Source of the DNA: Anaeromicrobium sp.
GTDB taxonomy: Bacteria > Bacillota > Clostridia > Peptostreptococcales > Thermotaleaceae
Assembly (NCBI RefSeq): GCF_025210435.1
Contig: NZ_JAOART010000023.1
Span: forward strand, 62,001 to 126,000
Length of the DNA: 64,000 bases
Direction of reading: 5' to 3'
In this document: piece after piece, positions 6,866 to 13,629 of the stretch
Layout: each line of letters opens with the position of its first letter
Position numbering within the stretch: position 1 is the first letter of the stretch
Position numbers and translations under genes: made by a program
Notes under the pieces: generated by a model
What the model saw: the letters and a program-made list of their open reading frames with translations, nothing else
Told to the model about the DNA's origin: nothing
The model's database searches: none

Positions 6866-7315
6866 ATGATTAACTCTGCAGTTGAGAAATTAGAAAAGGG
6901 ACTTGAGAATGAGGATAAAGTAGGAGTACCGGCACGACATATAATTAAATTTTTAATAGCAAGGTGCAAAACAGACGAAGCTTTTTCAAAAAAAGTGCTT
7001 GTGAAGGAAAAAGAAGTAGAAGGTTGCTTTAATTATGTCTATGAAGAAGTAAAGAAAAGATTAAGTGGTAAAAGTGGCTGGATGGCTGATGATGAAGTTT
7101 ATAAAATTGCATCAATGTATTTTGACCCTGATGATACTGAATTTGATTATAAGTCAATAAATAAAGCTAGAGTTGAAAATTCTGATTCAATTATTCAGAC
7201 AAAGATAGTGGAGCAAAAGGCAGTCACTAATAAAAGGACCACAAGATTTACTAAAAAGAAAAATGGAAAAGTAATTAATTTCAAAGATCAAGTATCAATG
7301 TTTGAATTAGTGTAA
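6866..7315 (+). CDS. PcfK-like protein, AcrIIA9-related family
   Basis: The 149-aa protein has the PcfK-like layout: an N-terminal domain about 1-95 (ARHIIKFLIARCKTDEAFSKKVL, YVYEEVKKRLSGKSGW, VYKIASMYFDPDD) and a basic C-terminal region. It is followed by a PcfJ gene, the usual pairing on enterococcal plasmids and Firmicute phages. Some members of this family were described as the Cas9 inhibitor AcrIIA9, so an anti-CRISPR role is possible but not shown by sequence. The C-terminus, FKDQVSMFELV, looks like a sliding-clamp-binding peptide (QLSLF type) and is echoed by the gene ending at 14566. Confidence 0.7.
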   Translation: MINSAVEKLEKGLENEDKVGVPARHIIKFLIARCKTDEAFSKKVLVKEKEVEGCFNYVYEEVKKRLSGKSGWMADDEVYKIASMYFDPDDTEFDYKSINKARVENSDSIIQTKIVEQKAVTNKRTTRFTKKKNGKVINFKDQVSMFELV

Positions 7316-7335
7316 GTTATTTGAGGGGGATGGCA

Positions 7336-9270
7336 ATGAAAAAGAAATTACTTTCACAGGTGCCAATAGAAGAATTAAATATAGATTGGGATAGTTATGA
7401 ATATGAAGATAAATTACATCATCTAGCAGCTAAAGAAGTGACAGTAAATGAGAATAAAGTTTTAATGATACATCTGTATAGAGCTAATCCAGAAGAAAGA
7501 CAAGTAAATTTCAGTTACAGAGTATTCTTAACCAAAGATGATTATATAACACAGGATTTAAGGACAAGCCCTATGAAATGGAAAACAGGAGCCATAGAAA
7601 GCTTATTAGGATATGCAGGATATGTGTGGTATAAGAATGCTAAATGTGTTGATCAAGAATCAGCTAGAGTTATAAAAGACTTTCTTAAAACGGAAGATAA
7701 TCCATGTAAGGCCATATATAAATTACAAGAAGAGATTAAACACAACAGATTGAGAAAGAGACATGCAGCCATTAAATCTAAGATTGATAAAAGAATGGAA
7801 AATGTACCACCAGTACCTATGGATTTTAAGGAATGGGTTGAAAATATTGCATTGTACAAGAGTAGATACATTTACTATGAATATAAAAAAGGCAAGAAGA
7901 AGCTAAAAGCTTATTGTACCCATTGTAAACAGGATCTTATTGTGGAATCACCACGATACAACCAGAAAGGCACATGTATTTGTGGTAGCCCTACAACGTA
8001 TAAGTCAGTAGGAAAAGCCACTGGTGTACATGATACAGGGGAAGCAATTTTAATACAAAAGGTAGATGGAGATATTTTATTGAGATATTTTACAATATCA
8101 AAGACATACAGAGATCACTACAGACATCCTAAATTATACTATGGAGAAATGAAGAGAGTTTTTCTAAATAGTGAGGGTAGGACCAAAGCCTATGAATGGG
8201 CAGATTTTAAGCAAACAGGAGAAATGAGATGGTGTGATAGTCTTGGCAAATATGAAAGACTATATACTGCAGCTGTATATGATAGGAATTTAGAAGATGT
8301 TCTAGGAGGAACAAAATATCAGTACTGTGCACTAAAGGAATTTATAACGCATAAGCCAGGCCATAAGGTAGATGCATTAGAGTACTTAAGAAAATATGAA
8401 AAATATCCAGTCATTGAGTATTTAGTAAAACTTAAATTATATAACTTGGTTGGTCATATAGTAAAAGAATATAGCTACTCAAAATTAAATCTAAAAGGGA
8501 AGTCTATAAAAGAAGTATTAGGAGTAGACAAAGAGTATATGCCAGTACTACAAAGACTTAATGTAAACGATGATGAACTTATGATAATCAAAGAATCTCA
8601 GAAAAGAAATATAAAAATTAGTGATGAACAGATAAGGTTTATAGGGAATCAACTCATGGGAAGTCTAGATATATTTAATTGCAGCGAATATACCACTATA
8701 AGCAGAGTAATCAAATACATTAAGAAAAATGCATTTTGTAAACCTGGTGAGCGTTATGCCTATGATAAATTCCTAGATTGGAAAGATTACATAGAAAACT
8801 GTAGAGTTCTTGGATATGACATAAGAAGTGAATTTGTAATATTTCCTAAAGATTTTAAAAAAGAACATGACAAAGTGTATAAGTTAGTCCAGGAAAATCA
8901 AAGTGAGCTCTTTGACAAAGCTATAAAAAATATGAGTAATAATATATCTAGTCTATATAATTGGCAAAGAAAAGATTACATGATAATAGCTCCTAAGAGT
9001 GCAGAGGAAATTATAAGAGAAGGAGAAGCTCTTCATCATTGTGTAGGAACCTATATAGAAAAGATGGCCAAAGGCAAATCTATAATACTATTCTTAAGAC
9101 AAAAGAATAATCCTATAAAATCATTCTACACCATTGAAGTAAAGAATGGGAAAGTAGTGCAATGTAGAGGCAAAAAGAATAAGAGCATGACTAAGGAGAT
9201 AGAAAAGTTAATAAATAGATTTAGTAAAGAGAAATTAGTACCAATGTTACAGAAGAAAATAGCAAGTTAA
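7336..9270 (+). CDS. PcfJ-domain protein
   Basis: The large protein (644 aa from the chosen start) carries the PcfJ signature near its C-terminus (EGEALHHCVGTYIEKMAKGK, then SFYTIEVKNGKVVQCRGKKN). A four-cysteine zinc ribbon lies in the middle (CTHCKQDL...CICGSP, about residues 190-220). PcfJ genes travel with PcfK on conjugative plasmids and phages; their biochemical role is unknown. GAGGGGG at 7323 lies 6 nt before the ATG at 7336, making this start better than in-frame codons at 7321 and 7330. Confidence 0.8.
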   Translation: MKKKLLSQVPIEELNIDWDSYEYEDKLHHLAAKEVTVNENKVLMIHLYRANPEERQVNFSYRVFLTKDDYITQDLRTSPMKWKTGAIESLLGYAGYVWYKNAKCVDQESARVIKDFLKTEDNPCKAIYKLQEEIKHNRLRKRHAAIKSKIDKRMENVPPVPMDFKEWVENIALYKSRYIYYEYKKGKKKLKAYCTHCKQDLIVESPRYNQKGTCICGSPTTYKSVGKATGVHDTGEAILIQKVDGDILLRYFTISKTYRDHYRHPKLYYGEMKRVFLNSEGRTKAYEWADFKQTGEMRWCDSLGKYERLYTAAVYDRNLEDVLGGTKYQYCALKEFITHKPGHKVDALEYLRKYEKYPVIEYLVKLKLYNLVGHIVKEYSYSKLNLKGKSIKEVLGVDKEYMPVLQRLNVNDDELMIIKESQKRNIKISDEQIRFIGNQLMGSLDIFNCSEYTTISRVIKYIKKNAFCKPGERYAYDKFLDWKDYIENCRVLGYDIRSEFVIFPKDFKKEHDKVYKLVQENQSELFDKAIKNMSNNISSLYNWQRKDYMIIAPKSAEEIIREGEALHHCVGTYIEKMAKGKSIILFLRQKNNPIKSFYTIEVKNGKVVQCRGKKNKSMTKEIEKLINRFSKEKLVPMLQKKIAS

Positions 9271-9285
9271 TAAGGGGGAATTAAG

Positions 9286-9624
9286 GTGGAATTTTTAATA
9301 CCGATATTACACTCTAATGAAGAGTTAGGGTTTAAAGATAACTTAGATTTGGATAAGTTAGGAGAAAAATTAATAGAAGAGGCCAAAGAAGTACAGTCAG
9401 CTATAAACTGCTTTTTAGAATGTGATGATGTTGGTTTTAAATCTAAGAACATAGGAGATATAGTTGAGGAGGCTATGGATGCAATACAAATAGGTATAGG
9501 GATATTAAATTTCTGTATGAAAGAAGATGGTCAGATAACAAAAGAGAGAATGAAAGCTCATTTACCTAAATTGTTAAAAAGAGGATGGTTAGTTGAAAAT
9601 GTATTGAGAGTTGAGGAGTTTTAA
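9286..9624 (+). CDS. MazG-like all-alpha NTP pyrophosphatase
   Basis: The 112-aa helical protein shows the metal-binding pattern of the all-alpha NTP pyrophosphatase superfamily: EEAKE at residues 31-35 and EEAMD at 61-65 (EExxE followed by ExxD). These enzymes hydrolyse NTPs to NMP and PPi; phages use them to adjust nucleotide pools or remove aberrant dUTP-like nucleotides. It starts with GTG after AAGGGGGAATTAAG. The substrate cannot be inferred. Confidence 0.7.
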   Translation: MEFLIPILHSNEELGFKDNLDLDKLGEKLIEEAKEVQSAINCFLECDDVGFKSKNIGDIVEEAMDAIQIGIGILNFCMKEDGQITKERMKAHLPKLLKRGWLVENVLRVEEF

Positions 9625-11608: not shown

Positions 11609-12637
11609 ATGAGAAAAATAGATTCAATACTTATAAAGAAGGTAATTACTCACGTAATAGACATGAATTCAGATAGACCATTACTAAATGATTTTACTCA
11701 AGAAATAGATGCAACTATTCATGAATTTTTAGAAAAACATATTGTGAAGAATCTACAAAGTGAGGATAACAAGAAGGCTAATTTTAGAAGTGGAGAACAG
11801 ACTATATTGAGAGCTTGTGAGAGTATATTTGATGATAGTGATACTTTTGTAGCCAACTCCCAAAGAATAGCGGAGAGGCTGTTTAAGGTCATGAAAGATA
11901 ATAACTATAGTTCATCTTGTGACTTGGTAGTAGTATTGTATTCCTTTGAAGAAAATGATTATGTAGCCATACTAAATTTAGACTACAGTACATCCTTTAT
12001 ACATCAGGTAGAGTTTGTAGAGGATAGATTTAAGATAGATATTAAACCACAAGCTATAGGTCTTCCAGGGACGAATAAGAAGATTAATAAATGTGCATTT
12101 ATAAAAAGATATGATGAAGAAAGTGAATATGATCTCATTGTTCTAGATAAATATGTGGATTTAAAAAATGATGATATAGTTCCATTCTTTGTAAATGATT
12201 TTTTAAACTGCAATATGATTCTAGATGATAGAGATAAAACTAAAATATTTAGGGATTCTGTGGAAAAGTGGGTTAGAAAGAATCTGAGAGAAGATATTGA
12301 TGCTGCTATGGAGGTTAGGGATGAACTAGTAAATCAATATAGAAATAAAGTGGATATAGATCCTAATGATTTTGTACGACAAGTGATTGATGATAATGAT
12401 AAAAGAGACCATTTAGTACAATACTTAGCCGATGCAGGAATTAATTCTAAATTTGAAATAGATAAGGATTGGGTTGAGAAAAAGATTAAAAAGAGAAAAA
12501 TCAAAACTAATACTGGAGTGAAGATTGAGGTAGCGTATGAGGACTTTAAAGATAATTCTAAAATTGAAATTGAAAGAAATAATGATGGAACTATAGATAT
12601 AGTAGTTAAAAGTGTGAGATTTACACAAGAGTCCTAA
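11609..12637 (+). CDS. nucleoid-associated protein (NdpA/37-kDa family)
   Basis: The 342-aa protein matches the nucleoid-associated NdpA family: KKVITHVIDMNSDRPLLNDF at the start, a central IGLPGTNKKINKCAFI segment and a conserved FFVNDFLNC motif. Family members bind DNA; their role in phages is unclear. It has its own AGAGGGGG ribosome site and follows a 60-bp gap with a GGGCC-ACTATA-GGCCC hairpin. It is the last rightward gene before the leftward island. Confidence 0.75.
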   Translation: MRKIDSILIKKVITHVIDMNSDRPLLNDFTQEIDATIHEFLEKHIVKNLQSEDNKKANFRSGEQTILRACESIFDDSDTFVANSQRIAERLFKVMKDNNYSSSCDLVVVLYSFEENDYVAILNLDYSTSFIHQVEFVEDRFKIDIKPQAIGLPGTNKKINKCAFIKRYDEESEYDLIVLDKYVDLKNDDIVPFFVNDFLNCNMILDDRDKTKIFRDSVEKWVRKNLREDIDAAMEVRDELVNQYRNKVDIDPNDFVRQVIDDNDKRDHLVQYLADAGINSKFEIDKDWVEKKIKKRKIKTNTGVKIEVAYEDFKDNSKIEIERNNDGTIDIVVKSVRFTQES

Positions 12638-12692
12638 AGATGTATTAAGTGAAAAGTATCGAAGAAAAAAGGCAGTTATCCATGTGGATTAT

Positions 12693-12762
12693 GCTGTGTG
12701 TTGAACATCTATGTTCATGCTCTACCGCTGAGCTACCTCCCCAGAAAGCCACAACACACAGC
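12693..12762. repeat. 11-bp inverted repeat around the tRNA 5' half
   Basis: GCTGTGTGTTG (12693-12703) and CAACACACAGC (12752-12762) are perfect inverted copies separated by 48 bp that hold the tRNA 5' half. In RNA they would form a closing stem; in DNA they could be ends of a small mobile unit. Confidence 0.65.
12702..12742 (-). tRNA. tRNA 5' half (acceptor 5' strand, D-arm, 5' anticodon strand)
   Basis: From 12742 leftward: acceptor strand GGGGAGG, TA at positions 8-9, a canonical D-arm (GCTC, loop AGCGGTA, GAGC), A26, then TGAAC. TGAACAT is followed by ATGTTCA, so the half ends in its own hairpin instead of a standard 7-nt anticodon loop. The anticodon is therefore undetermined from this half. 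Confidence 0.55.
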
Positions 12763-12904
12763 ATTGGTGATATAAAGTATCGAGTCAAGGAACCCCACAA
12801 CCTTTCAATATAAATTCGTATAGCTGTAATTTCTTTTGTAAAGAAATCCACTGCTATAGTAAAAGTTACAACCGAAAAAATGGAAAGGATCAATTTCAAC
12901 ACTT

Positions 12905-12945
12905 CGGGGAGGGTTGGAATCGAACCAACGCACTGGGCATCAAAT
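12905..12945 (-). tRNA. tRNA 3' half (3' anticodon strand, T-arm, acceptor 3' strand)
   Basis: Leftward: TTTGAT, GCCCA (3' anticodon-stem strand), a 4-nt variable loop GTGC, a perfect T-arm (GTTGG, loop TTCGATT matching TTCRANY, CCAAC), acceptor strand CCTCCCC and a G discriminator; CCA is not encoded. If the halves join at U33, the anticodon would read TTG (Gln), but the anticodon stem TGAAC/GCCCA would carry two A-C mismatches. Confidence 0.55.
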
Positions 12946-12991
12946 TGTATTATAAATTTATCACAAACTAACAAATAGTTCAAGAAAAGAA

Positions 12992-13096
12992 ATGGGAATG
13001 CATGCAGAAATCAGTAATATGCCTTATATAGAAAAGGTTGTAAATAAGTATGAATTTAAAATAGATGACAAACGGAAGGTAAAGTCGCTAGAATGA
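12992..13096 (+). other. 34-codon ORF, possible gene fragment
   Basis: A frame MGMHAEISNMPYIEKVVNKY... ending at 13096 has a protein-like composition but no ribosome site. It may be the remnant of a gene disrupted when the leftward island formed. Not a confident gene. Confidence 0.25.
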
Positions 13097-13159
13097 AGTT
13101 TTACTGTATAGACCGAAAAAGTGATAAGGATAATAGTTAGGGAAAAGAAGAACTATGAT

Positions 13160-13190
13160 GAAAAATAAGAGCAGGATCGCTGCTCTTATT
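13160..13190 (-). terminator. terminator of the leftward membrane-protein gene
   Basis: Eleven-base-pair stem AATAAGAGCAG/CTGCTCTTATT with a 5-nt loop, followed leftward by a T-run. The stop codon of the gene lies inside the stem. Confidence 0.8.
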
Positions 13191-13629
13191 GAGACATTAT
13201 ATACATAAATGTAAAGAAAACGAAAACAAGAAATAAAAAAATCATAGTTAACGAAACTAAATAATTGAGATAATAGAATCCAGCAATAAAAATTAGTAAT
13301 CCTGCTATGCCAGTTAATCCGTAGACAATAACAGTATAATCTTCATAAAGATTAATTGCTTGTATTATTAATGTTATACCGTTATGAAAACAAAGTAAAC
13401 CTGCAATAAGAGAACATATTAATGTAAGCATATAATCATCTGTATTAGAAAGTAAGTATTTGCCTAACTCTAAAAATGTTTCAGGTTTGGGTAGTTTTCC
13501 AATTAAATAGTTAGAAATAGAAGTAAAAATTGCTCCTGAAACAATAGTTGTTATAAAAATATTTTTATTACGTGAAAGATTATAGAAAGATGAAATTTTG
13601 TTAGATATATGATCTAAATCCAAATACAT
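13186..13629 (-). CDS. integral membrane protein (leftward cargo gene)
   Basis: From the ATG at 13629, preceded by GGAGGTTGCT, the 147-aa protein has a soluble N-terminal helix (DLDHISNKISSFYNLSRNK) and four hydrophobic segments, about 24-44 (IFITTIVSGAIFTSISNYLIG), 66-86, 95-115 and 120-143. It has its own strong promoter (13663-13691) and terminator and opposes the surrounding phage operons, the pattern of an accessory gene expressed in the lysogen. A role in superinfection exclusion is plausible but unproven. An upstream in-frame start would add 14 residues without a ribosome site. Confidence 0.7.
   Translation of the reverse strand: MYLDLDHISNKISSFYNLSRNKNIFITTIVSGAIFTSISNYLIGKLPKPETFLELGKYLLSNTDDYMLTLICSLIAGLLCFHNGITLIIQAINLYEDYTVIVYGLTGIAGLLIFIAGFYYLNYLVSLTMIFLFLVFVFFTFMYIMSQ

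Follow-up and report, generated by a model that had tools for sequence, protein, structure and literature searches.

A prophage in the DNA analysed here (64,000 nucleotides, hereafter the window) carries on the minus strand a tRNA-like element whose halves stand in permuted order, with the T-arm and acceptor 3' half preceding the acceptor 5' and D-arm half. The same order recurs at two further loci, L012 and L237, with compensatory changes in the helices, and we consider it very probable that this permuted tRNA-like fold exists and is under selection. The element is probably not a tRNA, because it has no conserved anticodon arm, encodes no CCA and varies in its acceptor letters. The best reading, to which we give an even chance, is a Ro60-independent, pseudoknotted tRNA mimic of Y-RNA-like build. 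These findings suggest that the Y-RNA plan, an inside-out tRNA elbow with a closed acceptor, also exists in a different topology and, it seems, independently of Ro60, and that bacterial and phage RNAs may mimic tRNA more widely than the Rfam model and the link to Ro60 imply.

Anatomy of the permuted element

Read along the minus strand, the element opens with overlapping TATAAT and TACAAT motifs (12944..12954), a putative -10 recognised from its letters and unscored by a consensus scan, 15-25 nt ahead of the T-arm, with motif ends 14-19 nt before it. The T-arm, GTTGG-TTCGATT-CCAAC (12929-12913), has a 5-bp stem and the 7-nt loop TTCGATT, and is followed by the acceptor 3' strand CCTCCCC (12912-12906), a discriminator-like G (G73, 12905) with no CCA after it, and a linker (12904-12743) that forms the acceptor loop. 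This linker measures 162 nt, one fewer than the 163 nt given in the preliminary description of the sequence, and 140 nt in L012 and L237. Beyond it lie the acceptor 5' strand GGGGAGG (12742-12736) and, at 12735-12719, a TA connector (tRNA positions 8-9) with the D-arm GCTC-AGCGGTA-GAGC (D-arm proper, 12733-12719). A hairpin with a 6-nt loop, TGAACATAGATGTTCA (12717-12702), takes the place where the anticodon arm would be; the folding program also makes a hairpin at this place in L237, not in L012. A short hairpin with a T6 run (12690-12665), visible in the letters and unscored in the window, is a possible terminator.

The preliminary description had called the acceptor strands complementary and both arms canonical, and in the window every pair is indeed Watson-Crick (acceptor 7/7, T-stem 5/5, D-stem 4/4). 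The permuted order that it proposed was likewise borne out: a motif scan requiring 5/5 T-stem, 4/4 D-stem and at least 6 of 7 acceptor pairs, with a linker of 40-400, picked up a single instance in the window, whereas 150 first-order Markov windows yielded none. Neither ARAGORN nor Rfam, the latter at its gathering score, returned a match in the window, which sets aside any known Rfam RNA at that score. When the isolated halves were compared with the Rfam tRNA model in truncated mode, the T-arm and acceptor 3' half matched positions 34-71 (18.4 bits, E 0.029) and the acceptor 5' and D-arm half positions 1-31 (15.2 bits, E 0.18); the partial matches cover the T-arm, the D-arm and both acceptor strands. 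Both scores fall short of the gathering score of 29, weak scores being expected of fragments, and the 15.2 bits of the 5' half are on the same level as the match of an unrelated miRNA model.

The preliminary description had missed a second, outer helix of 13 bp. Its 5' strand, ATGCTGTGTGTTG (12764-12752), lies within the linker, 9 nt ahead of the acceptor 5' strand, and pairs at 13 of 13 positions with CAACACACAGCAT (12703-12691), whose first 2 nt overlap the hairpin at 12717-12702; the 5' half is thereby enclosed. Because its strands sit in the linker and 3' of the D-arm, the outer helix crosses the acceptor helix, and the two may coexist as a pseudoknot or may be alternating pairings.

Recurrence and covariation

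The locus L012, from a Marinisporobacter MAG, was brought in by blastn of 99 related genomes and matches both halves in the same order, and L237 lies in genome G015, which has the same genus label. Both retain the permuted order, the acceptor pairing and the outer helix. A covariance model built from the window's 5'-half hairpin alone (R1) scored 42.9 bits at L012 and 29.2 bits at L237 (E 6e-4 for its genome). The window's opposite strand reaches 28.4 bits with R1 because the outer helix is self-complementary, so that the 29.2 bits of L237 by themselves prove little and this locus rests mainly on its identity with L012, which is 86% across a 352-bp block. That block alone, from the promoter-like site through to just past the terminator, is common to the two loci; their surroundings differ, and L237 lies ~230 nt downstream of an ssrA gene that itself follows smpB.

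Across the three members, in an alignment fitted to the model, 6 of the 13 outer-helix pairs are altered on both sides and 94.9% of the outer-helix cells are paired; the covariation score of 0.57, in essence a single comparison of two lineages, was matched by 0 of 500 shuffles, with slid partners reaching at most 0.13. In the acceptor helix, pairs 3-70 and 4-69 read GC/GC in the window, CG/AT in L012 and TG/GT in L237, which are compensated changes. Acceptor pairing is 7/7 in the window, 6/7 in L012 (C-A at 1-72) and 7/7 in L237 including two G-U. L237 also has an A instead of U at position 8 and an A-A mismatch in the T-stem, because of which the strict motif scan passes over it. In each of the three members, the fold of the 5'-half hairpin is better than that of shuffled sequences (z -4.2, -3.9 and -2.9). 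With a folding program unable to build pseudoknots, the minimum-energy fold of the isolated hairpins contained the D-stem in L012 only, and that of the whole region (z -2.2) formed the T-arm, with D-arm and acceptor pairing absent. A covariance-model search and an inspection of relatives for compensatory changes had been proposed in advance as checks, and their outcome favours a real, selected RNA.

The signals claimed for the two ends, a weak promoter just ahead of the 3' half and a hairpin with a T-run after the 5' half, fared unevenly. In the window, the consensus scan scored no terminator and no promoter immediately ahead of the T-arm; a minus-strand promoter-like site (13044-13016, 9/12) lies ~90 nt upstream of the T-arm, and promoter sites number three in total against a shuffle mean of 2.0. 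Both signals were scored in the relatives. L012 and L237 each have a TG-extended promoter with its -10 ending 27 nt ahead of the T-arm, although their totals of promoter sites do not stand out from shuffles (2 versus 1.7 in L012, 3 versus 2.8 in L237), and each has one terminator at the expected place, with shuffle means of 0.3 and 0.1. As the promoter-like letters stand close upstream, little RNA would precede the T-arm.

The members to date are three loci in one bacterial family and effectively two lineages. A pattern search of 394 genomes of the order gave L012 only, and R1 gave nine genomes at E <= 1 among the 99 relatives, three of them members. A second model, R2, found G000, G014 and G015 only in 298 genomes of the order (E <= 0.05), no additional member in 391 genomes of the class, where two weak matches came without the T-arm half or a tRNA, and no additional member in 398 genomes of the phylum (E <= 0.02), while six weaker matches in 17 genomes of the family were all non-members; these genome draws overlap, and the searches score just a share of first-look candidates, so that diverged members could escape. 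One protein scan and seven pattern scans of viral contigs gave no member, for linkers of ~166-226 nt among the matches listed, and named phage and plasmid records yielded mostly short matches inside tRNA genes, or nothing, and no homologue. A long-linker scan of 234 loci produced 70 permuted-order pairs, eight of them without normal partners, and among these eight an enclosing inverted repeat was present only in the window and in L012. A third inverted-repeat case, L161, met among 295 loci, turned out to be an ordinary tRNA pair, and L255 was discarded as an unrelated match in what appears to be coding sequence.

Comparison with known tRNA-like RNAs

The element resembles the bacterial Y RNA YrlA (Rfam RF02553) in presenting, in order, a T-arm, an acceptor-like helix closed by a loop, UA and a D-arm, in having no anticodon arm, and in occurring in phages or prophages. 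This order is found at all three loci, with AA replacing UA in L237; in the cmscan output, the YrlA model consists, in sequence, of basal stems, T-arm, acceptor hairpin, UA, D-arm and closing stems. In the accessible text of PMC8394870, YrlA is described as a tRNA mimic composed of a paired-end stem and a tRNA-like domain, the latter comprising D, T and acceptor arms; DusA and TruB modify the RNA, and PNPase binding takes place at the tRNA-like domain. The element differs in its loop, which spans 140-162 nt as against a few in YrlA, and in its additional helix, which crosses the acceptor helix, whereas the basal stem of YrlA pairs both ends. The RF02553 covariance model gave no match at the three loci, where the long loop may mask one, and exact complements that could make a basal stem there reach 6, 5 and 7 nt at the longest, each of them lying upstream of the putative -10.

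Y RNAs are not foreign to phages: in the parts of the sources at hand, TROVE proteins are reported in a small subset of jumbo phages (PMC7824862) and one YrlA among the Mycolicibacterium prophages surveyed (PMC8190616). A short-linker scan of 295 loci gave 40 permuted-order pairs, of which 21 had no normal tRNA partner on either side; these 21 modules, which are of Y-RNA type, lie in 19 viral contigs that were fetched via T-then-D patterns and form a non-random sample, some being near copies of each other (IMG/VR; L038, L050, L054, L059, L061, L071, L077, L138, L141, L145, L171, L195, L208, L211, L214, L215, L224, L232 and L234). An exact basal complement of 8-12 nt was present in 10 of the 21 modules. 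Among the 20 ORFs tested of 33 with at least 330 aa, TROVE was found above the cut-off in five of the 19 contigs (L038, L050, L061, L138 and L145), and DUF2828/DUF7788 in L195 and L211; the TROVE genes indicate that the short-linker scan does recover Y RNAs. The Rfam YrlA model matched three of six viral loci tested, all below its gathering score of 69 (L050, 59.4 bits; L071, 45.1 bits; L062, 34.2 bits). The 21 modules, with TROVE in five of the contigs, make the role of phage Y RNAs testable.

The permuted tRNA genes of algae and archaea likewise have the 3' half ahead of the 5' half and an intervening sequence that links the acceptor ends. According to the available portion of PMC3978253, this sequence spans 1-74 bp, the transcript passes through a circular intermediate, and a bulge-helix-bulge junction leads to a complete tRNA with anticodon. 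The element, by contrast, has no conserved anticodon arm and a linker of 140-162 nt, and inspection of the three members revealed no complete cloverleaf with an anticodon arm upon joining the halves. A permuted tRNA in a Firmicute phage had been thought new, and the literature searched, mostly papers outside subscription and in part through extracts, indeed yielded no permuted tRNA gene in a bacterium or phage; the arm order itself is not new, being known from bacterial Y RNAs, also in phages. As far as the accessible passages go, PMC10085705 names tmRNA, not tRNA, as the bacterial case of natural permuted RNAs, permuted reads from E. coli tRNA fragments reflect RNA circularisation rather than gene order (PMC10455298), and in PMC5733544 permuted tRNA appears in the reference list only.

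With tmRNA (RF00023) the element shares the upper half of a tRNA and the lack of an anticodon arm, and with the permuted two-piece tmRNA (RF04321) the permuted gene order. It differs in its full 4-bp D-arm and in acceptor pair 3-70, which is G-C, C-G or U-G and not the G-U that is linked to alanine charging. Neither RF00023 nor RF04321 matched window positions 12300-13300 at E <= 10. A group I intron with permuted exons was also rejected, as no intron match lies around the locus at E <= 10 and there is scant room 3' of the 5' half.

Proposed role and alternative explanations

The preliminary description had entertained an actual tRNA gene with a poor anticodon stem (two A-C mismatches), and neither part of this claim is supported. 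Inspection of the three members finds 2-3 possible pairs beside the D-stem between the halves and nothing conserved, and in the window the 5' half has a separate hairpin at 12717-12702. CCA follows the acceptor in 0 of 3 members but is encoded in 29 of the 30 host tRNAs that were parsed, and base 73 and the first acceptor pairs vary among the members. A tRNA mimic, raised there as a second thought, is the best fit. The mimic would be encoded on the minus strand by a small RNA gene of some 270 nt (about 12940 to 12665), with the transcript starting shortly ahead of the T-arm. It would fold into the upper part of a tRNA, with T-arm and D-arm connected via the acceptor helix; the outer end of this helix would be capped by the long loop, leaving no free acceptor end, and a decoding arm would be absent. 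The end of the loop would pair with the RNA's 3' portion over 12-13 bp, and this second helix would cross the acceptor helix and hold the D-arm half. The tRNA-like elbow would most likely be presented to a tRNA-recognising protein, perhaps an exonuclease (PNPase, for instance), an enzyme of tRNA modification or RNase P, and this partner would be tethered, redirected or competed for, as with bacterial Y RNAs. Independence from Ro60 is consistent with the absence of a TROVE (Ro60) gene from both genomes tested, G000 and G014 (G015 was left out).

A pure mimic does not explain why the linker contains an open frame in all three copies, and translation of the linker is the strongest rival, though an unlikely one. 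In this case a small, hydrophobic peptide of about 45-55 aa would be translated from the linker, and the surrounding tRNA-like fold would control the mRNA, for example via cutting by RNase P or RNase Z; a small membrane peptide would then be coupled to a tRNA fold. The frame, the same relative to the T-arm, is open throughout in the window, L012 and L237, and an open frame common to random linkers with the make-up of the window and L012 arises in 0.12% of 5000 trials; the peptides have two hydrophobic ends and a charged middle, and in L012 the letters GGGAGG stand ten bases ahead of an in-frame ATG. Yet no in-frame ATG, GTG or TTG precedes this late ATG, 16 of 40 codons differ between L012 and L237, with 11 of those 16 changing the amino acid, and the substitutions by codon position (7, 4 and 8) are as without coding constraint. 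BLASTP produces no alignment between the window and L012 peptides, and their global alignment, which beats 997 of 1000 shuffles, beats only 759 of 1000 after the part within the outer helix is removed. Searches of the peptides against Pfam and PHROG gave nothing above the cut-off, with weak matches for L012 alone (ATPase_gene1, E 0.015; PHROG, E 0.0051) and none for the other two, and tblastn against phage records gave no match.

We are similarly doubtful that the element is a permuted tRNA precursor, cut by RNase P before GGGGAGG and by RNase Z after CCTCCCCG, with the linker discarded and CCA added to give a two-piece tRNA comparable to the two-piece tmRNA. The full elbow signature (T-loop TTCGA, D-loop GG), the paired acceptor and ends positioned as both enzymes require would suit such a precursor, and permuted tRNA genes and two-piece tmRNA do exist (in the accessible parts of PMC3978253 and PMC10085705). 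The unconserved anticodon arm, the missing CCA and the variable base 73 and first acceptor pairs speak against it, as do the outer helix, which would bind the leader to the 5' half, and the failure to find an RNA ligase among the 40 ORFs tested, out of 62 in the window with 110 aa or more. A variant that we hold equally doubtful dispenses with decoding: a Ro60-independent, permuted tRNA-like precursor opened by RNase P and RNase Z would give a two-piece RNA held by the acceptor and outer helices, with a split acceptor and no decoding arm, and the linker would be released, perhaps as a small mRNA. If RNase P does cut the element, it would be a natural permuted substrate. A true Y RNA of the YrlA family, part of a Ro60 particle and with an enlarged acceptor loop, appears improbable and is already largely contradicted. 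Its arm order is identical to that of the YrlA model, and many of the viral contigs examined contain Y-type modules; against this stand the lack of a YrlA match at the three loci, which a 140-162-nt loop could mask, the absence of TROVE from G000 and G014, and the absence of any end-to-end basal stem within the likely transcript. Least probable to us is a recombination relic, also suggested in the preliminary description, in which one or two broken tRNA genes would have left their halves behind, with no present function. Wear is visible in L237, and the window copy abuts a small gene without a start, but order, spacing and extra helix are kept in two lineages with compensatory changes, and the best of 30 distinct host tRNAs (38 places were matched in the genome and 30 fetched) agrees with the window halves at only 21 of 27 and 18 of 26 letters.

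Genomic context and further observations

The window comes from contig 119 of a genome of 3.96 Mb, whose label places the host in the same family as Marinisporobacter, a genus of Clostridia. The assignment of the locus to a phage holds: the window contains prophage genes for a terminase, an SPP1-type portal, capsid E, a contractile tail sheath and baseplate J, and also RecU, Rha, Gam-like and replication genes. The element, on the minus strand, is convergent with the gene of a 37-kD nucleoid-associated protein (NA37), which ends at 12637. No empty site was found for the window copy, and the sole viral relative of this neighbouring NA37 gene is 30% identical. Upstream of the element, on the plus strand, lies the remnant of a small gene (~13004-13094) whose start is missing and whose broken end meets the upstream side of the RNA element; G001 (L009) has an intact relative of 48 aa, and similar DNA occurs in L014. 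Between this remnant and a minus-strand ORF ending at 13186, the window has a nearly perfect inverted repeat, AATAAGAGCAG ... CTGCTCTTATT (13164-13190), which is probably a two-way terminator. An ORF of 112 aa (12645-12983, minus strand) spans the entire element, including T-arm and D-arm, and carries a risk of mistaken protein annotation.

Some further observations concern other loci. In L244 (8915-9541), a tmRNA gene following smpB has an apparently displaced 3' end, with some 260 nt between the T-loop region near 9257 and the tmRNA-like CCA end near 9541; we suspect an intron-like insert, and no Rfam intron match was listed. The viral contigs L016, L020 and L044 carry phage tRNA-like genes whose arms are separated by additional sequence, the Rfam tRNA matches in L016 being 105 and 153 nt long. 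Within the prophage of the window, positions 6866-9270 hold PcfK-like and PcfJ-like genes, and PcfK and PcfJ genes are associated with conjugative plasmids.
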